Source of the DNA: a virus
Direction: 5' to 3' (one strand)
Length of the DNA stretch: 59,071 bases
Virus record (IMG/VR): IMGVR_UViG_3300048589_000569
Location: 1 to 59,071 of that record
Made by a program: the position numbers and the translations under genes. The notes beneath the pieces were generated by a model. The model did no database searches. It saw only the letters and a program-made list of their open reading frames with translations, and was not told the DNA's origin. Positions 27,949-56,468 of the stretch are shown one piece after another (within the stretch, counting starts at the first letter, position 1; each line of letters opens with the position of its first letter).

Positions 27949-28021
27949 TGCTCGGGGTGGGAGTCGAACCCACAACAGGGGGTTTAGAAGACCCCTACTC
28001 TATCCATTGAGTTACCCGAGC
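27949..28021 (-). tRNA. tRNA-Arg (anticodon TCT)
   Basis: 73-nt cloverleaf. The 7-bp acceptor is GCTCGGG/CCCGAGC, the D-arm ACTC/GAGT, the anticodon stem GGGGT/ACCCC with loop CTTCTAA (anticodon TCT), and the T-arm GTGGG-TTCGACT-CCCAC. Discriminator base is A and CCA is not encoded. It reads AGA and AGG, codons frequent in the virion genes at about 5.7-26.4 kb. It lies 19 bp 3' of the RNR gene. Confidence 0.95.
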
Positions 28022-28040: not shown

Positions 28041-30668
28041 TTAGGATCCGCAGTGGCCTCCCTTCCCTGAGATGTCACAGATGTCAGAGTGCTGAATGAT
28101 GGTTTCGGTGAATTCTTTTCCGACATTCTTGAGGGCCTCGCTGTAGGGGACCGGGGTGAGAGGTTGCCCGCCGCGTGCTGCGTCGGGATAGACGGTCATG
28201 CCACGGAGACGTGGGGCGTACTTGGCGAGGATGCTCGCGAAGTGAGGCACTCGCATCTTACTGTTGAGGGGGGTGCCCCACGCGGGCATGTTGATGGTGG
28301 AGGAGATGGCCATGTCGACGTAGTCCTGCATGTCCGCCTGGAACGAGATGCGTCGTTCGGGGTCGGAGGCAAGGGACAGAGCCGTTTCGATGTCGTCGGG
28401 CTGGCAGCCTGTCGTGGCCATCATTTCTCGAGCGGCTGATTCGACGACATACTGGTAGTGGTAGACGTTGTTCTTGAGGTAGATGCGCTTGAAGGAGACT
28501 GCGAAGATCGGTTCGATGCCTGTGGTCGTTCCGGCGAGCATACCGATGGTGCCCGTGGGGGCGATCGCTCGGCAGGCGACAGGTCGGCTGATTGATAGGC
28601 GGGCGGCGTATTCATCAGCGGCCCTCCGAGAGCCGTCTCGGTAGACCTCCATCCACGAACGCAACTCGTCGTTCATCTGGTAGCGGTAGCCACGAGTGAC
28701 GAGCCACTCATGGACTCCCATGAGGCCCAGGCCCAGACGACGGTTCTTCTCACGGACGATGTACATCTTCTGAGTGGGCAACTGGGCCTTGAGTGTGCCG
28801 CAGATGAGGAAGGCGGTGGCCAGTTCGACGCATTGGGTGAACTCCTCCAACGTCTCGATGCGTGAGAGGTTGAGGGATCCGAGGTTGCAGATGTCACTGT
28901 CGTCCTCGGAGGTCACCTCGCAGCAGTTGGAGATGATGACTCCCTCAGCCATGAACGTGTGCTCATCAACACCCACGTCGCAACAGAACACATCCTGCGT
29001 CTCCCCCTCGCTGACAGAGAGGACTCGAACGGAAGACTTACGGTAGGCGTCGTGCTCGGTTGGGGACAGCCGACGGGTGGGGATGAGTGAACGGAAGAGG
29101 TTGTTATACTCGCGGCAGATCACCAACTGGTAGACCTCAGAGCCTCCGTAGGTAGACGAGCCGTTCTTGGAGACATTGGAGAGGATGCCCATGCACTCCA
29201 AGGCTCGTCGGATGTCGTGGAGGAACCCTTCGTGCTTGGAGCAAAGACGGATCGCGTTCTGGCTGGCGTCGTAGTTGCCATCAGCGTCGAACAGCCCTGC
29301 GATGAAGGATTCATTCAACGCTTCGTCCCCGACCGTTTCTTTCGAGCGAGGGTAGCCGAACACGTCCTTCGAGAAGTACACCCTCGTATAGCCACGAGAG
29401 TCATCCCAGTTTACTGTTCCATAGGTGTTGAAGAAGGCGGCTAGACCTCTGGCGATTTCCTTGGACTCCGGAGAGCAGAACGTGATTTCACAGCGCCCCC
29501 CCCTCGAGAAGGATCCATCTCCGTAGGCATAGCCAAGGACGTACATGTAGTCGGAGGTGTTTGGCGACCCGTAGGTGGGCAGAGAGACGTGGAGGATGTC
29601 GTCCTCTTGGAGGTCCTTAGCGGGCACCCTCTCGATCGTGTCGAGAGTTCGAGACTTGCCCTTACCTGACCAGCGTTCGACTAGGAACTCGTGATCGGGG
29701 TCGCAGACGATCTGGCGTCCACCAGTCATGTTGACGGAGATGGTGGAAGTGTTCTCCTTCGTGCAACGGAACACCACGTCGGAGGCCCACTGCTTGCCGG
29801 TCCAGAGGGTGACAGGGGTGTTGACGATGTCGATCACCTGACGGATGCCCTCGGAGGTGTAGACGTGGGTGGAGCCAGCGACCGGGGCGTTACGAAGGGT
29901 TTCGCGGGCCTTGTCGCCGAAGTTGAACGAGAAGCCGGGCTCGCCGTTGCGAAGGGCGTACTCGCAGTTCTTGAGGAACACCTCGTCGGAGGCGGGATCG
30001 GGAAGGGAGAGCCACTTGTCGGAGTAGTTGACGGAGACGTTGGTGTTGTCGAGGGGGCAGGGGAAGGAGAAGTCGGCACGCTTGAGGTCGCCGTACGACT
30101 TGTCAGTGCCTGCGATCTTGCGGTTGTCCCAATCCTTCTCAGCCATGAACTCCATCACATCGTCGTGTTCGCGGTCGAGGGAGGCGTAGATGGCGGAGCG
30201 ACGGGAGCCGCCCTGCATGACGCGTCGACCAATCTCGTTGACCATCCCCATCGCGGGGAGGGGTCCGGAGGCGACTCCGCCCGTACGCGAGAGAGAGCGA
30301 CCGCGAGGTCTGTAGATTGAGTAGTCGAAGCCTAGGCCCATGCCGGTCATGAGCCACGAGGTGGTTTTGTAGGTGAGGTGGGACCAGTCTTCTCGGCTGT
30401 CCTCCTCGCAGCGACCGAGGGCGCAGTTGTTGTAGAACTTCGCTTCGCGGCCAGCATAGTAGAGGTAGCGACCCCCAGGGATGAACTTCATCTGGGCGAT
30501 CATCTGCTCGATCGCTTCGACGGTGTCTCGGGGGAGGAGGTCACCGCACACTTCCCACGTGAGGGTGTGGGCCAGTTTCTCCCACGTCTCACAACCTTCG
30601 TGGCTGTACTTGGCGTAGAAGATGTCGCGTCCGATGTTATTACGGAAGATCCCGTCGATCAGTTTCAT
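28041..30668 (-). CDS. nrdJ: Class II (B12-dependent) ribonucleotide reductase with intein
   Basis: 875 aa, including an intein of 320 aa (residues 262-581). The exteins form an adenosylcobalamin-dependent reductase that makes deoxynucleotides for phage DNA. Visible are the N-N-C redox Cys (about residue 82), the long GMGLGFDYSIYRP segment, and, once the intein is removed, the active-site N-A-C-C-E (N-x-C-x-E) with the thiyl Cys, followed by D-S-D-I-C-N-L-G-S. A C-terminal Cys lies in the final G-G-H-C-G-S. ATG at 30668 has AAGGAGG 4 bases upstream; an upstream in-frame extension is not needed. It overlaps the 5' gene by 29 bp. Confidence 0.92.
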   Translation of the reverse strand: MKLIDGIFRNNIGRDIFYAKYSHEGCETWEKLAHTLTWEVCGDLLPRDTVEAIEQMIAQMKFIPGGRYLYYAGREAKFYNNCALGRCEEDSREDWSHLTYKTTSWLMTGMGLGFDYSIYRPRGRSLSRTGGVASGPLPAMGMVNEIGRRVMQGGSRRSAIYASLDREHDDVMEFMAEKDWDNRKIAGTDKSYGDLKRADFSFPCPLDNTNVSVNYSDKWLSLPDPASDEVFLKNCEYALRNGEPGFSFNFGDKARETLRNAPVAGSTHVYTSEGIRQVIDIVNTPVTLWTGKQWASDVVFRCTKENTSTISVNMTGGRQIVCDPDHEFLVERWSGKGKSRTLDTIERVPAKDLQEDDILHVSLPTYGSPNTSDYMYVLGYAYGDGSFSRGGRCEITFCSPESKEIARGLAAFFNTYGTVNWDDSRGYTRVYFSKDVFGYPRSKETVGDEALNESFIAGLFDADGNYDASQNAIRLCSKHEGFLHDIRRALECMGILSNVSKNGSSTYGGSEVYQLVICREYNNLFRSLIPTRRLSPTEHDAYRKSSVRVLSVSEGETQDVFCCDVGVDEHTFMAEGVIISNCCEVTSEDDSDICNLGSLNLSRIETLEEFTQCVELATAFLICGTLKAQLPTQKMYIVREKNRRLGLGLMGVHEWLVTRGYRYQMNDELRSWMEVYRDGSRRAADEYAARLSISRPVACRAIAPTGTIGMLAGTTTGIEPIFAVSFKRIYLKNNVYHYQYVVESAAREMMATTGCQPDDIETALSLASDPERRISFQADMQDYVDMAISSTINMPAWGTPLNSKMRVPHFASILAKYAPRLRGMTVYPDAARGGQPLTPVPYSEALKNVGKEFTETIIQHSDICDISGKGGHCGS
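28926..29885 (-). other. Intein in RNR, LAGLIDADG type, Pro at position 1
   Basis: 320-aa intein. It begins PVAGSTHVYTSEG, matching block A spacing with Pro in place of the usual Cys/Ser, and ends G-V-I-I-S-N followed by Cys +1. Block B has C-D-P-D-H (H326 of the precursor). Block F is V-F-C-C-D-V, with Cys at the position usually Asp. Two LAGLIDADG motifs (VLGYAYGDG and FIAGLFDADG) show a homing endonuclease. Removal rebuilds the N-x-C-x-E motif, with Cys +1 as the radical cysteine. Confidence 0.9.
30296..30309 (-). repeat. Dispersed 15-mer, 14/15 copy, reverse
   Basis: AGCGACCGCGAGGT on the + strand within the RNR N-terminal extein. Confidence 0.75.
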
Positions 30669-31116
30669 AAGCCTCCTTCTCCATCCGAGCCGTCTCAAGT
30701 GCGAGTGCTTGTTCGTCGTTGATCAGTTGTTGAGCCGCCCTCAGTCGACCCATCCTCATGTTGTACTCGTACTCCGTCTCTCCGCTCCTCCGAGGATGCT
30801 CAACCGAACCCCTAACCTCGCGGTCGCTTAAGTGCGTGAGTTCGACGGCGAAAAGGAGACGACAGGAGGCGTTGATGAGTTCGGCGGGGTCGTTGTTGGC
30901 GAGGTTCTCGAAGATGTGCTTGAGGGCATGGTCGAGGTGGTCGCGAACTGGGATGTTGCGCCAGTTGTCAACGCCGTACTTCTCGGCGCCCGCTTTGAGG
31001 ATGCGACCGATTTCCAGGACGGCTATTGGGGGGAGGAGAGAGGGCGCCGTGTTGATGCGGGAGTGCTTGCCCCCACCAGCGGTCACCTCGATCTCCCCAT
31101 TCTCATATTTGCTCAT
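30640..31116 (-). CDS. dATP/dGTP diphosphohydrolase-like protein (DUF5664 / MazG-like)
   Basis: 158 aa. The segment G-A-E-K-Y-G-V-D-N-W-R (43-53), then H-L-D-H-A-L-K-H and N-A-S-C-R-L-L-F-A, is the pattern of the small phage dATP/dGTP diphosphohydrolase N-terminal family (DUF5664), helical MazG-like enzymes that remove pyrophosphate from dNTPs. It overlaps the RNR start, so both may tune the dNTP pool together. GGAG precedes the ATG. A dispersed repeat is translated as L-S-D-R-E-V. MazZ of 2-aminoadenine phages is related, but no PurZ gene is present here. Confidence 0.72.
   Translation of the reverse strand: MSKYENGEIEVTAGGGKHSRINTAPSLLPPIAVLEIGRILKAGAEKYGVDNWRNIPVRDHLDHALKHIFENLANNDPAELINASCRLLFAVELTHLSDREVRGSVEHPRRSGETEYEYNMRMGRLRAAQQLINDEQALALETARMEKEAYETDRRDLP
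30806..30831 (+). repeat. Dispersed 15-mer, extended 26-bp copy
   Basis: 26 bases identical to 5455-5480, with the exact 15-mer at 30815-30829. It lies within the DUF5664 gene, antisense to it. Confidence 0.92.
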
Positions 31117-33956: not shown

Positions 33957-36851
33957 TTAGCGTCGGCGGTAGCGACGGGAGCGGGATCTTATTCCACCGG
34001 TGGACGCGATTGCCTCGGATCGGTTCTCAACGAACGTCGCCGAGAGTTCGGCGCTCGCGTGGTCGTAGTCAACGATCGCGCCCGCCGCCGCTTCGAGCGT
34101 GAGTTCGGCGCCGGGCAGGATGACCGGGGAGAGCGAGTAGAACAGCGTCGCGGCGTCTCCTTCGATCGTCACGGAACTGAACGCCGTGAGCGTGCGCGGC
34201 GATCCGTCGACGTTGAGGGTGAGCGATCCAACCTGCTGCACATCGAAGGGCGTGTCGGTGAACGTGACGGGGACGCTGAGCACGTTCCCGGCTTCGTTGA
34301 CGCTGCCTGCGACCAGTCCGTTGCCGATCGTGCATTCGAGAAGGTCGGTCACGCTCTGCGCGAACGAGAGCGACTTGAGCGCGGTGATCGCCGTCGCGTC
34401 GGCGACGGTCGTGTCGTCGATGACCTGCGCGTCGGAGATCAGCATCTCCGTCGTCGCGTCGGCGCTCGTGCGCCAGCCGATGCGGAGCGAGTCGGGCGCG
34501 AACCCCGACGCGAGCGAAGTGATCTGTCCGGTGGCGAGGGGCAGACCTCCCGCTGACGCGGAGCACGCGAGTCGCCCGGTTCCCCCGTTCCACGTGAGGC
34601 ATCCGACGACCTGCATGTTGCGCGCCGGGTACGCCTTGCCGATGTTGACCGTTGAAGGGGTGCCCCCGCGCACCGAGCGAAGCACGAGGTTTTCCCCGGC
34701 CATGTCGATCTCGACGGCGGCGTAGTTGCTGTCATCCTCGTAGAGGCAGACGAGCGGGAGCGTGGTCTGGCCGAACGATTGGTCCCATCCGTCGCGCGGG
34801 AGTTTGACCGCGAAGTAGGCCGAGCACGCGTCGGCGGCGGCGTCGGTCCAGTCGAGCGAGGCCCGCTCGTCGGACGCCGCAGCGCCGCTCGCGGGCGAAT
34901 ACCCGGGCATCGTGAGCGAGTCGTACAGCGCATCGAGCGCGATCGAGACATCGAGCGCGTTGTTGGCCTGCGAGAACAGCGAGAGCACGAAATCGCCCGT
35001 CGCGGTGCGCGTGCCCGAGAAGGTCAGCGGCACCCACTCGCGTTGGAGGGCCATCGAGCCGCCCGCCGACGACACGCTGTCGAGGTCGCCGGCGCCGTTG
35101 ACGATCTCCTCGGACATGGAGAACTGGAACGAGCCGTCGCCGTGGTTGTACACCCACACGCGACCGGCGACGGGTCCGGCGGGGAAGCCGCCGCTCGACA
35201 TGGTGAACGCCGCGACCTCCACGAAGTCATCGACGGCGGTGGGCGTGCGCGTCACGCGATAGACGGGACACGACGCGGGCAGGTTGTCCGGCGGAGATTC
35301 TTCGAGCGTGACGCTCGCCGAGTTGAGCGCCGACGCCGACACGCTGGATGCGCGAAGGTTCTCGTCTGCCGATCCCACGCGAAGAGCACGACGCTTGACC
35401 GGCGTGTATCGCGGTCGCCAGCCGCCGCCCGTGTTGCTCGCATCGACGTTGTTGTTGCGGAGCGAAGTGAGGTGCGTCAGGTCCATCATCACGGCGGTGT
35501 TGCCGGTGGAGTTGAAGTTCCAGCCGGTGAGCGTTTCGCTCCACGTCATGCCGTCATCAGAGAAATACATCGGCCCGTAGGTGTACTTGTTGTTTCCGGG
35601 CGATTGAGCAGACACGCTGGGCTGCGAGCGAGCGACCCATCCGAGCAGCGGCGGGTTGTGCCACGACGCGCAGCGGATCGAGAACGCTTCGGCGCCGCCG
35701 GGATTCGCGCGGATGCCCAGCAGCGTCGTCGAGTGGACGATCGCCTTGTCGCCGGTGCAATCGACGATCGCGACGCCCTCCATGCCCAGGTCCGATCCCA
35801 TGAGGAGCGTGTCGTGGTCGGGGCCGGGGGCCATGCCCACGGGCTGAAAGCCGCGAACGCTGATGTCGTCGAGGTCGGCGTCGGCCTGACCGTGGAACTC
35901 GTCGTCTTTGGTCCAGTTGCCGAGCGTGGTCCAGTCGCCGTTGTCGATCGACGCGATGGGGATCGTGAGCGCCGAGAGGCCGGACTTGCCCATGCTGTCG
36001 CCGCGCGCGACGACGACGCGAGCGTGCGTGATCGTGCCCCCCGAGTCGCGCAGGAAGATCATGCCCGCCGAGTGCGTGTGGTCGCACGGGAACGGCGCCT
36101 CCCACTCGCCGATGCGCGCGGCGGTGAACGTCCAGCCGGTCGACGTGTCCGGTCGCGTCGCGCGCACGAGCAGGCAGACGCCGCCCGTTGCCTCCGGCGA
36201 ACCGCCCTTGAATCGGTAGTCCACCATCGGAAAGAAGAACTCCAGCGGCGCATCGCTGGAGTAGTTTCGGACGTAGGCGCCACCAACGGCCCATTCACGC
36301 AGGCGATCAACGCCGACCTGCACCGTGGCGTCGTCGAGGAGCAGGTTCCACGTCGCGCCGTCGTCGGTCGAGGTGATGACCGAGATGCCCTGCACCGTGC
36401 CGTTGAGGGTTCGGCGGCAGAGCAGGATGATGGCGCCGTGCGCGATGACCGACGCGTTCGGGAATCGGGCAGTGGTGTCGGGCCCGTCCACCACGCGAAA
36501 CGGCGCGACGCCGGTGGACGAACTCACGTTGGTCGTCGTGATCGCGGTGCCGTTGACGCGGCCCGACGTGATGACGACGTTGAGGGCCGAATTGTTGACG
36601 ATGACCGTGCGGTTGGCGGTCCCGTCGGCGGCGTACCCGGCGGACGAGCGGATTCGCTGGCCCGATGTGACGCTCCCGATGTCGGCGGACTCGTAGCCCG
36701 GCGCGAAGGCGTGGAGCGTGTCGAAGCGCGGGTCGTCGGCTCCGCGTGCGCGTCCGATCGGCTCGAAGGTCGTCTGTCCTCGCGTGAGCGAGAGCGAGAG
36801 CCCGGCGTCGGCGACGAGTCGTCGGTGGAATGTGGCGTTGCGCGTCGCCAT
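33957..36851 (-). CDS. Tail spike / receptor-binding protein with Asp-box repeats
   Basis: 964 aa. Two Asp-boxes, S-T-D-D-G-A-T-W (161-168) and S-D-D-G-M-T-W (431-437), suggest a sialidase-like beta-propeller in the N-terminal half. The rest is beta-rich with repeated immunoglobulin-like stretches and a basic C-terminal tail (R-S-R-S-R-R-Y-R-R-R). It would bind or cut a surface glycan of the host. It lies in the - block, far from the other tail genes. It uses GCG/CGC-rich codons unlike the flanking genes, a sign of recent acquisition. Starts at TAATG after the M64 gene. Confidence 0.72.
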   Translation of the reverse strand: MATRNATFHRRLVADAGLSLSLTRGQTTFEPIGRARGADDPRFDTLHAFAPGYESADIGSVTSGQRIRSSAGYAADGTANRTVIVNNSALNVVITSGRVNGTAITTTNVSSSTGVAPFRVVDGPDTTARFPNASVIAHGAIILLCRRTLNGTVQGISVITSTDDGATWNLLLDDATVQVGVDRLREWAVGGAYVRNYSSDAPLEFFFPMVDYRFKGGSPEATGGVCLLVRATRPDTSTGWTFTAARIGEWEAPFPCDHTHSAGMIFLRDSGGTITHARVVVARGDSMGKSGLSALTIPIASIDNGDWTTLGNWTKDDEFHGQADADLDDISVRGFQPVGMAPGPDHDTLLMGSDLGMEGVAIVDCTGDKAIVHSTTLLGIRANPGGAEAFSIRCASWHNPPLLGWVARSQPSVSAQSPGNNKYTYGPMYFSDDGMTWSETLTGWNFNSTGNTAVMMDLTHLTSLRNNNVDASNTGGGWRPRYTPVKRRALRVGSADENLRASSVSASALNSASVTLEESPPDNLPASCPVYRVTRTPTAVDDFVEVAAFTMSSGGFPAGPVAGRVWVYNHGDGSFQFSMSEEIVNGAGDLDSVSSAGGSMALQREWVPLTFSGTRTATGDFVLSLFSQANNALDVSIALDALYDSLTMPGYSPASGAAASDERASLDWTDAAADACSAYFAVKLPRDGWDQSFGQTTLPLVCLYEDDSNYAAVEIDMAGENLVLRSVRGGTPSTVNIGKAYPARNMQVVGCLTWNGGTGRLACSASAGGLPLATGQITSLASGFAPDSLRIGWRTSADATTEMLISDAQVIDDTTVADATAITALKSLSFAQSVTDLLECTIGNGLVAGSVNEAGNVLSVPVTFTDTPFDVQQVGSLTLNVDGSPRTLTAFSSVTIEGDAATLFYSLSPVILPGAELTLEAAAGAIVDYDHASAELSATFVENRSEAIASTGGIRSRSRRYRRR

Positions 36852-37663
36852 TACTCGCTTCTCCCGTAGTTGCTCAGCACGTCGTTCACCTGGTCAAAGT
36901 CTCCGTCGCGAAGCGCGAGGTTGAGGTCGTCGAAGTCCACGCGCCCGTCGCCATTCAGGTCGCCTTCCAATGGCGGGATGAACCGCGCGGCGGCGAGCAT
37001 GATCGCTTCGGCGTTCACCGGGCCCCACGGCTTGCCGAGTTGACGCATCCGGCTCGTGCGTGTCGGTCGGAAGATGCCGCGCGAGTAGTCGCCGCCGCCT
37101 CCCTCGAACACGCCCACGGTCCCGCCCATGCCGTCGTCGCGACCGATCAGGTGCGACCACTTCACAAGCGCGGGGTCGCTCTCGGTGTCAAGGTTCGGCG
37201 CGGACGGCCCGCCGCCGGTGTAGACGCCGCTGCGCCCGTACTCGTCGCCGAGCCCGCCGATCGCGTGGCCGAGGAACTCGTGCTTGAGCATCTCCGCGAA
37301 GTGGACGTTGTTCGCCGCGACGTACGCAACGTTCGCCATGCCGTTGTACGCGCCGCCGTAGTGCGACGAGTTGACGAGCAGGAGGACGATGTCGTGATAG
37401 CCGACGCCCTTCGCCGTGCGCCACGAAAGCACCTTGCCGACATTCAGCCGGAGGTTCCCGTTCGAGTGAACGTACGCGCCGAACGCGGTGTCGCCGCTGA
37501 GTTGGTCGGTCGCCGATTCGGTGTAGAGCGTCCGTGTCTGCATCCGGCGCACGACGTGCCCGACCTCGGGATCGCTCGCGAGCACGTTCATCGCTCGCGT
37601 CGCGTCGTCGAGGAACGCGGCCTCATCGGTGTATCCGTCGCCGGTGATCCAGACGGTGTTCAT
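36851..37663 (-). CDS. M64-type metallopeptidase with dockerin-like C-terminus
   Basis: 270 aa. I-T-G-D-G-Y-T at the N-terminus and H-E-F-L-G-H-A-I-G-G-L-G-D-E-Y (128-142) match the IgA-protease family M64, though the zinc motif has one extra residue compared with HExxH. Residues 234-268 (GDLNGDGRVDFDDLNLAL) form a dockerin/EF-hand-like calcium repeat common in Planctomycetota exoproteins. No signal peptide. It sits between tiny membrane proteins and the tail spike, so it may cut a protein wall or surface layer during lysis or entry. ATG at 37663 overlaps the previous stop. Confidence 0.78.
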   Translation of the reverse strand: MNTVWITGDGYTDEAAFLDDATRAMNVLASDPEVGHVVRRMQTRTLYTESATDQLSGDTAFGAYVHSNGNLRLNVGKVLSWRTAKGVGYHDIVLLLVNSSHYGGAYNGMANVAYVAANNVHFAEMLKHEFLGHAIGGLGDEYGRSGVYTGGGPSAPNLDTESDPALVKWSHLIGRDDGMGGTVGVFEGGGGDYSRGIFRPTRTSRMRQLGKPWGPVNAEAIMLAAARFIPPLEGDLNGDGRVDFDDLNLALRDGDFDQVNDVLSNYGRSE

Positions 37664-37785
37664 TGGCCGCTCCCCACAAACGCGATCCACGCGACGGCAA
37701 CACCCACAGTGACGATAAGAAGCCGCAAGATGAACTCGCGGCCATCGTTAGACACGATCCAGCGAGCGGGTCGCCGGAGTTTCAC
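37660..37785 (-). CDS. Tiny membrane protein, 41 aa (holin-like)
   Basis: GTG start overlapping the previous stop (GTGA) and stop overlapping the M64 start (ATGA). Basic N-terminus (V-K-L-R-R-P-A-R-W) then one membrane helix (residues about 18-37, FILRLLIVTVGVAVAWIAFV). Tight coupling to its neighbours supports it. A longer frame running upstream overlaps the 52-aa gene and is not needed. Confidence 0.65.
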   Translation of the reverse strand: MKLRRPARWIVSNDGREFILRLLIVTVGVAVAWIAFVGSGQ

Positions 37786-39957: not shown

Positions 39958-40286
39958 CGGGGGCTCAAAAGCGGCTCTCTTGAAGGAGACGAAGAAGGTG
40001 GTGAGGGTGGGCGTCGGGTGAGGAAGTTCTTGATCTCTCCCACCGTGCGTAGGGTCGAGACCGCAATCTCCTCGAACGACATTCCCAGGCGACGCATCGT
40101 CACGATCTGTAGGCATTCTTCTGTTCCTTCGGGCAGGGGGGTGCGTGGGAGGAGGCCGGAACTCTTCATCACCTTGATGATGTCGAGGGGGTCGGCGTCG
40201 AGGGCGGCGGCTATCTCGATGACGGACAACTTTTGCGACCAAAGGTGGCTGATCTTGTCCGCAAACGTCAGGTGGGGGGTATTCAT
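39954..40286 (-). CDS. HTH protein, sigma-like double helix-turn-helix
   Basis: 110 aa. Two HTH-like stretches, residues about 19-43 (L-S-V-I-E-I-A-A-A-L-D) and 66-90 (L-G-M-S-F-E-E-I-A-V-S), followed by a Ser/Pro-rich tail. It resembles sigma region 4 or small phage regulators; a role in transcription timing is possible. Its start overlaps the end of the polymerase gene (4 bp). Confidence 0.62.
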   Translation of the reverse strand: MNTPHLTFADKISHLWSQKLSVIEIAAALDADPLDIIKVMKSSGLLPRTPLPEGTEECLQIVTMRRLGMSFEEIAVSTLRTVGEIKNFLTRRPPSPPSSSPSREPLLSPR

Positions 40287-43200
40287 CGTTTCTTTTCCGA
40301 CAACTCGTACTCAATCGGCACTTCGTTGCCGTAGTGAGTCTGCACTTTCGACCAATAGTCGTTCTTCTGCACCTCAACCACACAATCATGGAAGAGGTCT
40401 TTGACTGCCTGCTCCTCCCCCGGATACACGTCAATGCCCACACAGTCGTAGATGTTGAGGACTTGGAGGGACCGGAGTTTCCTTTCCCGAAGGAGGTGGC
40501 GAACGTGGTGCTGAATGTTGAGGAGGGTGAGGGCGGCGGTCGATTGGACGGGGAAGTTGACGACTGTAGACTTGACTTTCTCGATGTCCATCGCGTGGCC
40601 AGGAAACCACCGACTCACCCCGACGAAGGGCAACTCGAGAATGTTCTTGGTCTTCGCCTCCATCAACAGTTGGGCCTGCCAATCCATGAGACGGGGACGA
40701 ACCTTGTGGCGGGAGTTGGCCACCCCCTCAAAGAAGGAGAGGGGCAGGTCTATGCCCAACTTTCCCATGACAGTGTCTCGCATGGTTCCGGGCGAGGAGA
40801 GGAAGAGGTCGGCGAAGTTGATGGTGTTGTGGGTCAGGAGGTAGTCGCGGGTGGCATACAAACGGTCGCCAGCATCTACAGAGATGCAAACGCATTCTGA
40901 CTCACCCGCTGGTTCGATTCCCACGATCTTTCTGAACATTCTGAAGGGAGACCACCTATCGGCTTTCCTCTTCAAATGGAAGCAATTCATTGGAGTCCTA
41001 ATGGTCACACACCAAGCAAAGCCTTCCTTTTTCACCCCTCGATAAGTGTGAGAGGTTGGACGCTTGCGGACTTTTGCGACTCCGCCCAGACTACGGACTA
41101 GTTCGCAAACATCTAAGGCGAGTTGCTTAGAAACAGTCGTGTAGGAGGCAGATCCTCGTGGGGTGATAGTTCCGTCTGTATCCATGAGCCCCCGAAGGAG
41201 ATCTACCCGTTGGGGGACGCTAGCAGCCAAGTATCTCAAGGGGATTCTTTTAGAGTGGGCGTTCTTTCCCCAGCAATCCAACGAACCCAAAGCACCCTTC
41301 AAAGGGTTGATTTTGGTTCTGCCCCGTGTCCCCATCGAGAAACAGACGGCGTGACGAAACTTCCGTTCGATCACTAACCCCCAACCATCCAATTCCTCGG
41401 CGATACGTTCAACGATTTCGTTGTCCTTTTCATCGTTGACAAGGATGGGTGTCCCACAAGTTATAGATCCGTCACCCAAAAAGGCTCCTAACGTGTACGG
41501 CGGGATGTCCAGATCCAACTCAGAGGTCTCGAAGGGCTGCCCTACGGGAATCTCGTATCGCCAACCCTTTTGCCACGAAAGATCGCGAGTTCTGAGGGTG
41601 TCCAACGAGATCACCTCTTCCTTGCCTTGTGTGTCAGTTACCTTCCAAAGGTGTTCACCACAGCAGCGAGTCCACGACCCGTCGTAGAAGGAGATCTTGT
41701 AGATTGGTTTAACCCCTTGCGGGTAAATTCCAGTAACGGATGTGATCCCGTTTGACCCGTAGATCTTGTCACCCACCTTCAAACTACCGATAGTCTTCGG
41801 CCCTTCTGGGGTCATGACAGGTTCATCAACAGGCTGCGCCTTCCCGACCTGTCTGTACTGCGACTTGAAGTAGGGGTCCCTAACGATGTCCTCGCCGAAC
41901 ATCTGGATGGTTCGTTGGGTGTGGAGGTCGCCTCCCCTTTGGTAGTTCTCGATGAGGGAGGGTTCGCCGGAGAGAAGACCGGCGACGCGGAGTTCGATCT
42001 GCGAGAGGTCGAACATGAACATCGAGCCTCCCAACCACCGGGACGTGATGGTCGACTTGATGGAGTAGGGGAGAGTTTGGATGGCCGGACCCTTGCAGGT
42101 GATGCGGGCCTGCAACGTACCGCCTTCGGAGCCTTCGCCGTCCTTGATGGCGCCTGGGATGGGGTACCACGTGGGGTAGGCGATCGTGGCCACCTCACCG
42201 TCGACGCGGATGGGGATGAGACGGGAGGCCTGCTTCTTCTCGTTCTTGGGAGAGTGACGAAGGAGGGGGAAGGTGTAGGAGGAGACCAACTTCGACGCCT
42301 TTTGGTACAGGTCGAAGTAGTGAGTCAACTTCTCCAGTCGGTGGCCTTCGGGGAGGAGGGTAGAGAGGTAGTTGCGGTTGGCGTCCTTTGCGGACACCTT
42401 CTTCGCCGCCTCCGTCAATTCCACCTGCCCCCCATTGAAGTCCGGATGGGTTTTAGCGACCGCGAGGAGTTTGGCCATGAAGCGGTCTTTCGAGCGGACG
42501 GAACCCTTGCCTTCGAGGAGGAGGCCCATCCGTCGGGCTCGTTTGCGGGCCCACTTCATCTGGCGGAGATTCATGAACTCAATGCGTTCGATGGAGGGGG
42601 CGTCCATGGCGATGCCGTTGAGGGCCATGTCCACACAAGTCCAGATGGTGTCGGCGTAGAAGGAGAGGCAGTAAGGGGAAAGTTTGTCGGTATCTGGGCG
42701 GGACTCGAGACGACCGGCCAATTTCGCGAGGGCGAGAACGGTGGCCTCAGTGTCGAGGGCGTTGTACTCGATGATTTCAGGGTCGTTGGGTGAGTAGAAC
42801 TTCCCGTCCTTGATCGTTCGGTGGTACGAATGGGTGCCCAACAACGGGCCCAGATCCTTCAACGACCTCTCCTCTCTCGCCTCATTCTCCAGATAGTTCA
42901 CCACAGACAGGTCGACCAGTTGGACCTCGCGGTCGCTTGAAATCATTTTGGCGTAGTGAAGGTAGAGGAGGTCGAACTGGAGGTAGTGGCCGATGAGGAG
43001 GGTGGCGTGAGAGAGCCACGCTTTGAGCATGGAGAGGTGGGAGAGGTTGCGAGGTTTGAAGACGAGGGTGGTGATGGGGGAGAGGGAGGAGAGGGAGGAC
43101 GGCATCTCGCAGAGGGTGATGGAGACGGTTTGGATGAGATCGCGAGGGTTGACGGAGTCGGTGAAGATGGAACGGGCCGGATGGAAGACCGTTTGGTCGG

Positions 43201-43939
43201 GCAGTTCTTGGTTGAAGATGGTCTTGCGACAGGCGCCGTAGGTTTCGATGTCGACGCAGAGGATGGAGGAGTCGGAGGGGAGGGGGAAGCGAGGGCGGGA
43301 GATGGAGGGGTCGTGAGAGGGGGAGGAGCCGTTCTCGATGGTGTCGATGAGACGGGTTAGGTGTTCGGTGACGGCGTGGAGGGCGGCTGGCTTGTTCCAA
43401 GGGGCGAGGTAGGCGGGGTTGTAGGTGGAGAAGACTCGCCAGGGGGAGCCGCCGAAGGAGACTTCTTGGCCTTGGAGTTTGAAGGCGTCGGTGGTGGATG
43501 AGTTGAGGATTTGGCGGGCGGGGGTGCCGCCGGTGAGGAGGAGGAATAGGGGGGAGTTGGGGTGTGCCTTCTCGATGGAGAGGAGGTCGGCGGTGAGGTG
43601 GGCGAGGCAGGCGGTCAGTTCGTTCTTGCGGAAGGCGGGATTGCGGACGCCCACGGGGAAGCAGCGGATGGAGTTGGTGAGGTAGATGTGGGAGAGGGAG
43701 GAGAGGCCCGAGCCGTTGAGGTAGACGTTCTTGAGGTATTCGCCGGTTGAGCCGATGAAGGGTCGGGCGTTTGCGTCTTCCTCGAAGGATGGGTGGCTTC
43801 CCACGACCACGACCACCGGGGCCCGATGGTCGGGGTGGGTGTGGAAGGGAATGGTGGCGAGGCCCCGATTCTTGCAGCCGAGCAGGTGGAGGTTGCAGTC
43901 GGTGCAGTCAGGACGGGATGGGAGGATTGGCAGTTCCAT
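40283..43939 (-). CDS. Uracil-DNA glycosylase/DNA polymerase A fusion with intein
   Basis: 1218 aa. Residues 1-200 are a family-4 uracil-DNA glycosylase domain: Cys12, 15, 93 and 111 fit its Fe-S cluster and N-A-R-P-F-I-G-S-T-G (57-66) its G-R-P-F-V-G motif. A 3'-5' exonuclease follows (C-V-D-I-E, D230/E232; L-Q-F-D323; N-A-L-D396), then the polymerase palm with motif A D-L-S-Q-I-E-L-R (D644). A 338-aa intein (701-1038) splits motif B. Motif C is Y-D-C (1164-1166) instead of the usual H-D-E. It replicates phage DNA; the fused glycosylase may check for uracil. Confidence 0.9.
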   Translation of the reverse strand: MELPILPSRPDCTDCNLHLLGCKNRGLATIPFHTHPDHRAPVVVVVGSHPSFEEDANARPFIGSTGEYLKNVYLNGSGLSSLSHIYLTNSIRCFPVGVRNPAFRKNELTACLAHLTADLLSIEKAHPNSPLFLLLTGGTPARQILNSSTTDAFKLQGQEVSFGGSPWRVFSTYNPAYLAPWNKPAALHAVTEHLTRLIDTIENGSSPSHDPSISRPRFPLPSDSSILCVDIETYGACRKTIFNQELPDQTVFHPARSIFTDSVNPRDLIQTVSITLCEMPSSLSSLSPITTLVFKPRNLSHLSMLKAWLSHATLLIGHYLQFDLLYLHYAKMISSDREVQLVDLSVVNYLENEAREERSLKDLGPLLGTHSYHRTIKDGKFYSPNDPEIIEYNALDTEATVLALAKLAGRLESRPDTDKLSPYCLSFYADTIWTCVDMALNGIAMDAPSIERIEFMNLRQMKWARKRARRMGLLLEGKGSVRSKDRFMAKLLAVAKTHPDFNGGQVELTEAAKKVSAKDANRNYLSTLLPEGHRLEKLTHYFDLYQKASKLVSSYTFPLLRHSPKNEKKQASRLIPIRVDGEVATIAYPTWYPIPGAIKDGEGSEGGTLQARITCKGPAIQTLPYSIKSTITSRWLGGSMFMFDLSQIELRVAGLLSGEPSLIENYQRGGDLHTQRTIQMFGEDIVRDPYFKSQYRQVGKAQPVDEPVMTPEGPKTIGSLKVGDKIYGSNGITSVTGIYPQGVKPIYKISFYDGSWTRCCGEHLWKVTDTQGKEEVISLDTLRTRDLSWQKGWRYEIPVGQPFETSELDLDIPPYTLGAFLGDGSITCGTPILVNDEKDNEIVERIAEELDGWGLVIERKFRHAVCFSMGTRGRTKINPLKGALGSLDCWGKNAHSKRIPLRYLAASVPQRVDLLRGLMDTDGTITPRGSASYTTVSKQLALDVCELVRSLGGVAKVRKRPTSHTYRGVKKEGFAWCVTIRTPMNCFHLKRKADRWSPFRMFRKIVGIEPAGESECVCISVDAGDRLYATRDYLLTHNTINFADLFLSSPGTMRDTVMGKLGIDLPLSFFEGVANSRHKVRPRLMDWQAQLLMEAKTKNILELPFVGVSRWFPGHAMDIEKVKSTVVNFPVQSTAALTLLNIQHHVRHLLRERKLRSLQVLNIYDCVGIDVYPGEEQAVKDLFHDCVVEVQKNDYWSKVQTHYGNEVPIEYELSEKKR
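40826..41839 (-). other. Class 3-type intein in DNA polymerase motif B
   Basis: 338 aa starting A-Q-P-V-D-E-P-V-M-T-P-E-G, so position 1 is Ala, not Cys/Ser. It ends L-L-T-H-N followed by Thr +1. It has His63 and Trp65 in block B (E-H-L-W), Cys318 in block F (C-V-C-I-S-V) and Thr336 in block G, the W-C-T set of class 3 inteins. LAGLIDADG motifs are L-G-A-F-L-G-D-G and L-L-R-G-L-M-D-T-D-G. Splicing restores R-Q-V-G-K-T-I-N-F, the polymerase O-helix. The DNA is AT-richer than the exteins. Confidence 0.93.
42455..42467 (-). repeat. Dispersed 15-mer, 13/15 copy, reverse
   Basis: AGCGACCGCGAGG on the + strand in the polymerase gene, translated L-L-A-V-A. Confidence 0.55.
42924..42938 (+). repeat. 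Dispersed 15-mer, exact copy
   Basis: Exact word, antisense to the polymerase gene, translated there as S-S-D-R-E-V in the exonuclease domain. Confidence 0.9.
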
Positions 43940-44660
43940 AATTGGCTGTCAGTGCCTTCCATGAGACGGGGAAGTGGGGGTCGATGAGGTCGCAGAGGGC
44001 GGAGGCGTACTCACGAATCTCCAGTTGGGCGTGGGTAGAGGAGCGGAGGTGGTGGATTCGGGCGAGAGCGGCGAGGGATGCGGTGGTGCGAAACTCAGTG
44101 AACATGGATTGGGGAAGGACCATGCGGGCCTGCTCTGGACAGACACCCAACTCCAGCAGCCGTTCGTACGTCTCAATCGCCTTTAAAGTGGCGGATAAAT
44201 AGGCAGTGGATGCTCTATCGCCCCCAGACTGTAGGCGGTCGCCGGAGCCCTGTTTGATGGAGCCATCGGGTCGGGCACGCCAGAAGGAGGGAATGTGAAT
44301 GTCGGGTGTTTCGTCGACGTAGCGACGGGAGACTTCGTTGATGACGACGCCTACTTGGTGCTTGAACCACTGACGGGCCACGAAGAGAGGCATCTTGATG
44401 TGGAGGTGAGCGCCGACTTGAGCGAATGGAGTCCAGTGGTTGTGGCGAGCGAGGTACTGGATCAGTCGAGCGTCTGAGTCCTTGAGTCGCTTCTCTGTGG
44501 TGTCGCCGTCGCTGATGGTGTCGGGTTCGATGCGGATTTCGTCCCACTCGGATTCTTTGAGGAAGGAGACGCGGGCCGCGTTGACCACATCGAGGTCTGT
44601 ACCATCGACGCGGATGAGTCGGATGAAACCTTGGTCGAGAACAACATGGGGGTCATGCAA
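43908..44660 (-). CDS. thyX: Flavin-dependent thymidylate synthase ThyX
   Basis: 250 aa from a TTG start with GGAG 8 bases upstream; the open frame extends further but only in a Ser/Pro-rich shadow of the next gene. The signature lies at 96-114: R-Q-W-F-K-H-Q, then I-N-E-V-S-R-R-Y, where K-H-Q replaces the usual R-H-R. It makes dTMP from dUMP with FAD, NADPH and methylenetetrahydrofolate. It overlaps the polymerase by 32 bp and the glycosyltransferase gene by 8 bp. With RNR and two MazG-type enzymes it forms a dNTP supply set. Confidence 0.9.
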   Translation of the reverse strand: MHDPHVVLDQGFIRLIRVDGTDLDVVNAARVSFLKESEWDEIRIEPDTISDGDTTEKRLKDSDARLIQYLARHNHWTPFAQVGAHLHIKMPLFVARQWFKHQVGVVINEVSRRYVDETPDIHIPSFWRARPDGSIKQGSGDRLQSGGDRASTAYLSATLKAIETYERLLELGVCPEQARMVLPQSMFTEFRTTASLAALARIHHLRSSTHAQLEIREYASALCDLIDPHFPVSWKALTANYGTANPPIPS

Positions 44661-45267
44661 GGGGGGTCTCCGTGGGGGGGATGGAGCGTGAGCCTCGACC
44701 ACCAAGAAGGTGGGCTGTTTTGCGGGAGTGTTGGGTGTGGGAGATGACGGGAGTGTAGGGTGGGTTGGGGGGGTTGTTGACGATGTGGCAGTAGGAGGGG
44801 GGGAGGAGGATGGTGGAGAGGTTGGGAAAGGAGCCGATGGCGGACTGGAGGTTGGACTGGTCCCAGGTGCGGGGGTGGCGGGAGCAGACGTAGTTCCAGT
44901 GTTCAAGGAGACGGAGGGAAGTGGGGGTGGGAGAGAAGAAGAGGGTGCCAGAGAGGAGTTCTTGGCGAGTGGATCGCTGGAGATAGCGACAGGCAAAGTC
45001 GCACTCAAGAGAGTTGAAGAGGTGGGGGAAGGAGTTGAAGCGAGCGTCCGCGTCTACCCATACGACGGGCACGTTTGAGATGTGGATCACCTCGAGGATG
45101 TGGAGAGGTTTGTGGTTGGTGGCCTCAGTCCACGACTTGAATTCGTTGGGGAGGCGGAGGGCTTCGACGGTGAGGCCCACGGAGGCGGCGGAGGCGAGCA
45201 TCTCATCGAGGGTGGCGTGGTAGAGGGGGGTGGCGAAGGTGACGACTCGGAAGTCTTGAACGGTCAT
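44653..45267 (-). CDS. GT-A-type glycosyltransferase
   Basis: 204 aa. W-V-D-A-D-A-R-F (70-77) is the DxD motif that binds a metal and a nucleotide sugar, in a fold like the nucleotide-diphospho-sugar transferases. Substrate unknown: phage DNA, virion or host surface glycan are all possible. The next gene upstream is a second enzyme of this kind. Overlaps both neighbours by a few bases. Confidence 0.75.
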   Translation of the reverse strand: MTVQDFRVVTFATPLYHATLDEMLASAASVGLTVEALRLPNEFKSWTEATNHKPLHILEVIHISNVPVVWVDADARFNSFPHLFNSLECDFACRYLQRSTRQELLSGTLFFSPTPTSLRLLEHWNYVCSRHPRTWDQSNLQSAIGSFPNLSTILLPPSYCHIVNNPPNPPYTPVISHTQHSRKTAHLLGGRGSRSIPPTETPLA

Positions 45268-56393: not shown

Positions 56394-56468
56394 TGACCTC
56401 GGCAGGATTTGAACCTGCGTCTTCCGCTTGAGAAGCGGATGTCATGAGCCGGACTAGACTACGAGGCC
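56394..56468 (-). tRNA. tRNA-Glu (anticodon CTC)
   Basis: 75-nt cloverleaf: acceptor GGCCTCG/CGAGGTC (one G-T), D-arm GTC/GAC, anticodon stem TCCGC/GCGGA with loop TTCTCAA (anticodon CTC) and T-arm GCAGG-TTCAAAT-CCTGC. It reads GAG, the prevailing Glu codon in most phage genes. CCA is not encoded. Confidence 0.95.

Follow-up and report, generated by a model that had tools for sequence, protein, structure and literature searches.

A proline-initiated, class 3-like intein at the radical cysteine of a viral ribonucleotide reductase, and its likely descent from a class 1 intein

The DNA considered here (the window) is a virus contig of 59,071 bases. A class II-like ribonucleotide reductase (RNR) gene occupies positions 28041-30668 on the minus strand as a single open reading frame of 875 amino acids: RNR matches flank an in-frame insert of 320 amino acids on both sides, and the exteins account for the remaining 555. 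The NrdJ_Z profile is the best match of the host protein (E=4e-55), yet it stays under that profile's own cut-off; an RNR barrel Pfam match is also present, and the best solved relative is the B12-dependent RNR of Thermotoga maritima (1xje). The RNR small-subunit family (PF00268) was not found in the viral record, which is possibly incomplete. On its sequence, the host enzyme looks like a class II RNR. A tRNA-Arg gene (TCT anticodon; 27949-28021, minus strand) lies directly downstream, a second tRNA (Glu, CTC) is found at 56394-56468, and a dATP/dGTP diphosphohydrolase-like gene (30640-31116, minus strand) overlaps the start of the RNR gene.

The insert is an intein that extends from Pro1 to Asn320 (28926-29885, minus strand; the coordinates given in the earlier note are exact). 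Its stop-free translation runs PVAGSTHVYTSEG...DVFCCDVGVDEHTFMAEGVIISN. Block A, PVAGSTHVYTSEG (29847-29885), opens with Pro1 (29883-29885); block B, GRQIVCDPDHEFLV (29679-29720), contributes Asp62 (B:7), His65 (B:10) and Phe67 (B:12; 29685-29687); block F, DVFCCDVGVDEHTFMAEG (28941-28994), contains Cys301 (F:4; 28983-28985) and His309; and block G, GVIISN (28926-28943), ends the intein with Ile318 (G:5), Ser319 (G:6) and Asn320 (G:7), all of these on the minus strand. Pro at the start, Phe for Trp in block B, a block F Cys and Ile/Ser in block G had all been read off the sequence beforehand, and correctly so. The proposed pairing of block F cysteines fared less well: Cys301 is invariant in the 26 relatives described below, but Cys302 (F:5) varies (Cys, Ala or Thr), which rules out a functional Cys301-Cys302 pair.

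Between the splicing blocks lie two LAGLIDADG-type motifs, VLGYAYGDGSF (residues 116-126; 29508-29540, minus strand) and FIAGLFDADGN (residues 194-204; 29274-29306, minus strand). The two LAGLIDADG helices have acidic ends, and sequence, Pfam (LAGLIDADG_3, E=4.6e-14) and Foldseek (matches to I-DmoI and PI-SceI) concur in pointing to a homing endonuclease; the Intein_splicing profile matches the insert at 5e-5, below its cut-off. Structure prediction, which the earlier note had put forward as a check, yields a HINT-type intein fold (AlphaFold2, pLDDT 95, pTM 0.91) whose best Foldseek matches are inteins: endonuclease-bearing ones in the PDB, with RNR inteins included among the best viral matches. 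Blocks A, B, F and G, a terminal Asn, Cys+1, the predicted HINT fold and a precise in-frame insertion thus occur together in this one insert.

The insertion junction reads ...ETLRNA / intein / CCEVTSEDDSD. Among the 80 nearest intein-free relatives the corresponding join is NACTE in 61 and NACCE in 16 (77 in all), which leaves no surplus residue and makes Pro the first position of the intein. A re-alignment giving the intein a Cys or Ser start, which the earlier note had named as one outcome that would tell against it, was looked for and not found; it is ruled out by the intein-free relatives, which fix the junction and keep Pro at position 1. The +1 Cys (28923-28925, minus strand) aligns with the NPC cysteine of Thermotoga maritima NrdJ (1xje), which is well established as the thiyl-radical residue. 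Intein-free relatives and NrdJ alignment accordingly agree with the original reading that the intein splits N-A / C-C-E just before the radical Cys. The uncut precursor should be inactive, because the radical Cys stays outside any active site until Asn320 has cyclized and the extein bond has been re-formed; the suggestion that the enzyme needs splicing to work is judged right on the grounds of this disruption of the radical site. It applies to every intein at this RNR site, the class 1 NrdA inteins included. The site also imposes a constraint of its own: the radical Cys must stay Cys, and Ser or Thr at +1 is therefore no option.

The same phage carries a second intein. A gene for a DNA polymerase A fused to a uracil-DNA-glycosylase-like domain (UDG-PolA; 40283-43939, minus strand) holds a canonical WCT class 3 intein (40826-41839, minus strand) with Ala1, H-L-W, Cys F:4, T-H-N and Thr+1. 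Its matches to other WCT class 3 inteins reach E=3e-53, against a mere E=0.42 for the RNR intein, which rules out the RNR intein as a copy of its neighbor. Other genes of the same phage deserve a passing remark: a ThyX gene (43908-45008) has about 130 extra N-terminal residues, an M64 (IgA) peptidase family match (36851-37690, minus strand; Pfam 2e-15) sits among phage replication genes, and a 964-amino-acid open reading frame in the replication region (33957-36851, minus strand) has no Pfam or PHROG match.

Does the Pro1 intein stand alone? Scans of IMG/VR at the protein and DNA levels place a related intein at the identical RNR site in about 30 uncultivated viral contigs. Residues were counted in 26 complete, non-near-identical members of this Pro1 lineage, within which identity drops to about 34%. 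Pro1, His B:10, Phe B:12, Cys F:4 and Asn G:7 are each invariant (26/26), with the proviso that some members were picked up by block F patterns, which favor Cys F:4 in that subset. G:5 is Ile, Leu or Val in all 26; G:6 is Ser in 24 and Ala in 2; B:7 is Asp in 22, Glu in 2 and Ser in 2, and never Thr. Cys+1 is present in every Pro1 locus among those listed with their junction. A scan unbiased at residue 1 (its pattern was free at residue 1 and in blocks B, F and G, and constrained a few block A positions) returned 23 Pro1 loci, 7 Cys1 loci and 2 chance matches; within the reach of a pattern that constrained those few block A positions, none of the 30 RNR matches has a residue 1 other than Pro or Cys. 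Two scans of GTDB genome contigs yielded no Pro1 relatives in cellular genomes; the matches listed from cultured phages and plasmids are class 1 RNR inteins or unrelated, with none of the Pro1 type; and a search of the class I NrdA context (NL/P) for the Pro1 type gave chance matches only. No description of the lineage was found in the literature examined, and some of its members may sit among the 1701 class 3 sequences of PMC7891396. The lineage appears to be new.

Does an intein without Cys1 splice at all? Compared with the 96%-identical locus L002, dN/dS is 0.07 for the intein and 0.05-0.11 for the exteins: the Pro1 intein is under purifying selection and is as constrained as the protein that it interrupts. 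Taken with the AlphaFold2 model, this rules out a chance reading frame or a decayed intein. One might still suppose, from the missing Cys1 and the missing penultimate His, that it is a splicing-dead or cleavage-only remnant, its precursor staying uncut and its RNR inactive. We consider this very improbable: the insertion splits an essential radical site, the exteins are constrained along with the intein, and the active-site residues are kept throughout the lineage, also in copies that have shed the endonuclease. Those copies are seven small members (130-149 amino acids) and L154 (167 amino acids); that they have lost the endonuclease domain and kept the splicing residues argues that splicing itself is the retained trait. 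Retained function is likewise favored by the occurrence of intact inteins, several of them endonuclease-free, at one essential site in about 30 contigs. The fold is no guide to the manner of splicing: the L003 mini-intein (130 amino acids; AlphaFold2 model, pLDDT 97) has a mixture of class 1 and class 3 inteins as its best Foldseek matches, which leaves the class undecided.

Assignment to a class depends on which definition is applied. Class 1 inteins start with Cys, Ser or Thr, and this one starts with Pro, at a junction fixed by intein-free relatives. Of the marks of class 2 (the KlbA type), a non-nucleophilic residue 1, Ser319 at G:6 and Cys+1 are present, while Asp F:4 (Cys in 26/26) and Thr B:7 (Asp, Glu or Ser) are missing; the class 2 members known to us start with Ala. 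Of the marks of canonical class 3, Trp B:12 is replaced by Phe and Thr G:5 by Ile, Leu or Val (26/26 each), and the RNR radical Cys stands where Ser or Thr+1 would be expected, a rule to which there is one published exception, Bvi IcmO. In PMC7891396, however, class 3 (1701 inteins) is defined by the lack of Cys at N1:1 together with Cys at C2:4 (F:4), and by that definition all 26 Pro1 inteins, having no nucleophile at residue 1 and Cys at F:4, belong to it. The same paper records deviations from W in 6.1% and from T in 4.6% of the 1701, and a proven class 3 mechanism for AceL NrdHF, in which Met replaces Trp (M-C-T). Since WCT deviants with a class 3 mechanism are known, the absence of W and T alone is no sign of a new mechanism. 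Judged by its residues, then, the RNR intein is class 3 by the definition of PMC7891396 and not by the WCT definition: class 3-like, but non-canonical. The earlier note was right that W and T are missing and overstated the case in concluding that the intein fits none of classes 1, 2 or 3, given what PMC7891396 says of the definition and of WCT deviants; the Pro1 lineage, the Cys1 sisters at the same site, the departure of Cys+1 from class 3 and the PolA class 3 intein are absent from it.

The Cys1 sisters are informative. Seven Cys1 inteins (L156, L162, L173, L178, L179, L182 and L183) occupy the same LRNA/C.E junction in the same RNR subfamily. Together with 14 class 1 RNR inteins found in cultured phages and on a Nostoc plasmid, they make up the comparison set, and all 21 have Cys F:4. 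Thus the Cys1 class II-like sisters share with the Pro1 lineage its exact site, its host subfamily and its block F Cys, and differ in Cys1, in Thr or Ser at B:7 and in a TGQ or TGN end. The class 1 NrdA inteins (from Vibrio ICP1, Rheinheimera, Staphylococcus and Acinetobacter phages, L004-L009, L011-L013, L015 and L017, and from the Nostoc plasmid, L153) also sit at the radical-Cys site, and are the nearest relatives of the Pro1 inteins by profile and tree. They too are inserted before the radical Cys and have a LAGLIDADG endonuclease, Cys F:4 and a VW(N/T)G..W motif; they differ in Cys1, Thr B:7, a mostly T-G-Q end, a block F shorter by one residue, and a class I NrdA host. In the comparison set as a whole B:7 is Thr (once Ser) and the C-end is mostly T-G-Q/N.

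The W-C-T triplet does not follow residue 1 at this site. It is complete, despite Cys1, in four of the seven class II-like sisters (L156, L162, L173 and L178) and in the class Ia intein L012, whereas the Cys1-less lineage reads F-C-I/L/V in its place. WCT is thus uncoupled from residue 1 in RNR-site inteins and, as far as these sequences go, is not by itself diagnostic of class 3.

Where did the Pro1 type come from? Comparison of splicing-domain profiles gives a score of 170 (E=1.8e-29) against class 1 RNR inteins, 101 (E=4e-17) against other class 1 inteins and 57 (E=3.1e-9) against WCT class 3. In trees of the splicing domain (106 columns, with the trait columns removed) the Pro1 and class 1 RNR inteins lie on one side of a branch with support of 100/99.6; the grouping recurs with all columns, and the branch has 99/97.5 in the full-length tree. 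The alternative is that the Pro1 intein is an ordinary WCT class 3 intein minus its W and T, in which case its likeness to class 1 RNR inteins would reflect convergence or endonuclease exchange. Class 3 does share with it Cys F:4, the lack of Cys1, Asp B:7 and the additional residue in block F, and on the short splicing-only sets a Pro1+class 3 clade is not formally rejected (AU p=0.17 and 0.15). On the full-length set it is (AU p=0.0045), though endonuclease columns may contribute to that value and the endonuclease can move separately; leaving the other class 1 outgroups out of that set gives p=0.32, a value that says nothing either way, the constraint having moved one long branch only. With profile scores and trait-free tree both on the side of class 1 RNR inteins, site and host subfamily common to Cys1 inteins, and the class 3 PolA intein of the same phage barely matching (E=0.42), we hold class 3 ancestry to be quite unlikely. 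A class 1 RNR intein is the likely ancestor of the Pro1 type, which would then have an origin separate from that of WCT class 3.

Cys F:4 occurs in all the RNR-site inteins compared and in none of the other class 1 inteins compared; the simplest order of events would therefore have a class 1 RNR intein acquire Cys F:4 first and the Pro1 line lose Cys1 later. Two changes shift the Pro1 inteins away from their Cys1 sisters toward class 3: B:7 goes from Thr to Asp, and block F gains a residue. In the alignment, the block F His follows Cys F:4 after 7 steps in class 1 RNR inteins and after 8 both in the Pro1 lineage and in WCT class 3, and PMC7891396 describes the same one-residue block F insert in class 3 inteins; from Cys F:4 to the last residue there are 18 steps in Cys1 RNR inteins, 19 in Pro1 inteins and 20-21 in WCT class 3. 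Pro1 is also found in one WCT class 3 intein (L145). Otherwise, canonical WCT class 3 inteins (M. chimaera DnaB1, mycobacteriophage TerL and the PolA intein of this phage) resemble the Pro1 type in lacking Cys1, in Cys F:4, His B:10 and Asp/Ser B:7, and differ in Trp B:12, Thr G:5, His G:6, Ser/Thr+1, a longer C-end and membership in a separate clade. Such likely descent of the Pro1 type from class 1 would go against the view of a single origin and against the "cannot directly evolve" view (PMC4031507, PMC7664689).

How might such an intein splice? Lacking a nucleophile at residue 1, it is left with two of the known routes, those of class 3 and class 2. In the class 3 route, Cys F:4 attacks the N-terminal junction and the acyl group is handed to the +1 residue. 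The corresponding scheme for the RNR intein would be as follows: Cys301 (F:4), helped by His65, would attack the Ala(-1)-Pro1 bond and carry the N-extein as a thioester; the N-extein would pass to Cys+1; Asn320 would cyclize with no His preceding it; and an S-to-N shift would then restore N-A-C-C-E and with it a working radical site. The scheme is favored by Cys in place of Asp at F:4, by the replacement of the B:7 Thr by Asp and by the class 3 spacing of block F. Against it, two of the three class 3 marks, W and T, are absent, and Cys+1 is very rare in class 3 inteins. Three class 3 inteins lost the ability to splice when their Trp B:12 was changed to Ala (PMC5222942). Nor does the invariance of Cys F:4 alone prove a nucleophilic role, for it is equally invariant in the Cys1 sisters.

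Ser G:6 and Cys+1 recall the class 2 pattern instead. In the class 2 route Cys+1 attacks directly, and Asp F:4 and Thr B:7 are required (PMC4031507). Its counterpart here would have Cys+1 attack the Ala-Pro1 bond directly, with Cys F:4 activating the thiol or packing the site as Asp F:4 does in KlbA. A non-nucleophilic residue 1, Cys+1 and Ser G:6 (24/26) make up the KlbA combination (PMC4031507), and the Cys1 sisters already own Cys F:4 where a nucleophile at that position is not needed; but the two required residues are here Cys (26/26) and Asp, Glu or Ser, and every class 2 intein known so far is a KlbA orthologue. Such splicing seems to us unlikely, if still a serious contender. It is rather unlikely that the steps follow yet another, fourth order, in which for instance Cys+1 would directly attack a strained Ala-Pro bond and the F:4 thiolate would serve as base or reversible relay; if they did, the Pro1 inteins would form a natural bridge between classes 1, 2 and 3, reached from a class 1 intein already in possession of the F:4 Cys. 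On balance we think it probable, if by no means assured, that the RNR intein is active, splices in cis by a class 3-like route in which Cys F:4 acts first, and goes back independently to a class 1 RNR intein; that it splices, that its nucleophiles act in this order and that it came from class 1 are all things that we infer.

Two other RNR inteins invite comparison. The split class 3 intein AceL NrdHF (PMC7891396) is likewise a WCT deviant in a phage RNR and without His at G:6, but it is split, begins with Ala, keeps Thr G:5 and resides in the beta subunit. The split intein NrdJ-1 (PMC13123727) occupies nearly the same place in an RNR (native NPC/SEI), but one residue later, after the radical Cys and with Ser at +1.

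Three things appear to be newly seen here: a lineage of Pro1 inteins, the way it covaries with Cys1 sisters at a shared site, and evidence that it descends from class 1. Sequence rules built on WCT would overlook Pro1-type inteins or pick out class 1 inteins in error. Mini-inteins of about 130-150 amino acids that lack Cys1 and accept Cys+1 may serve as tools. Within a single gene family, and at a single codon position, Cys1 inteins already in possession of the F:4 Cys stand beside Pro1 inteins that have dispensed with Cys1; with W-C-T in some of the former and in none of the latter, the origin of class 3 and the meaning of WCT become testable in a natural series.
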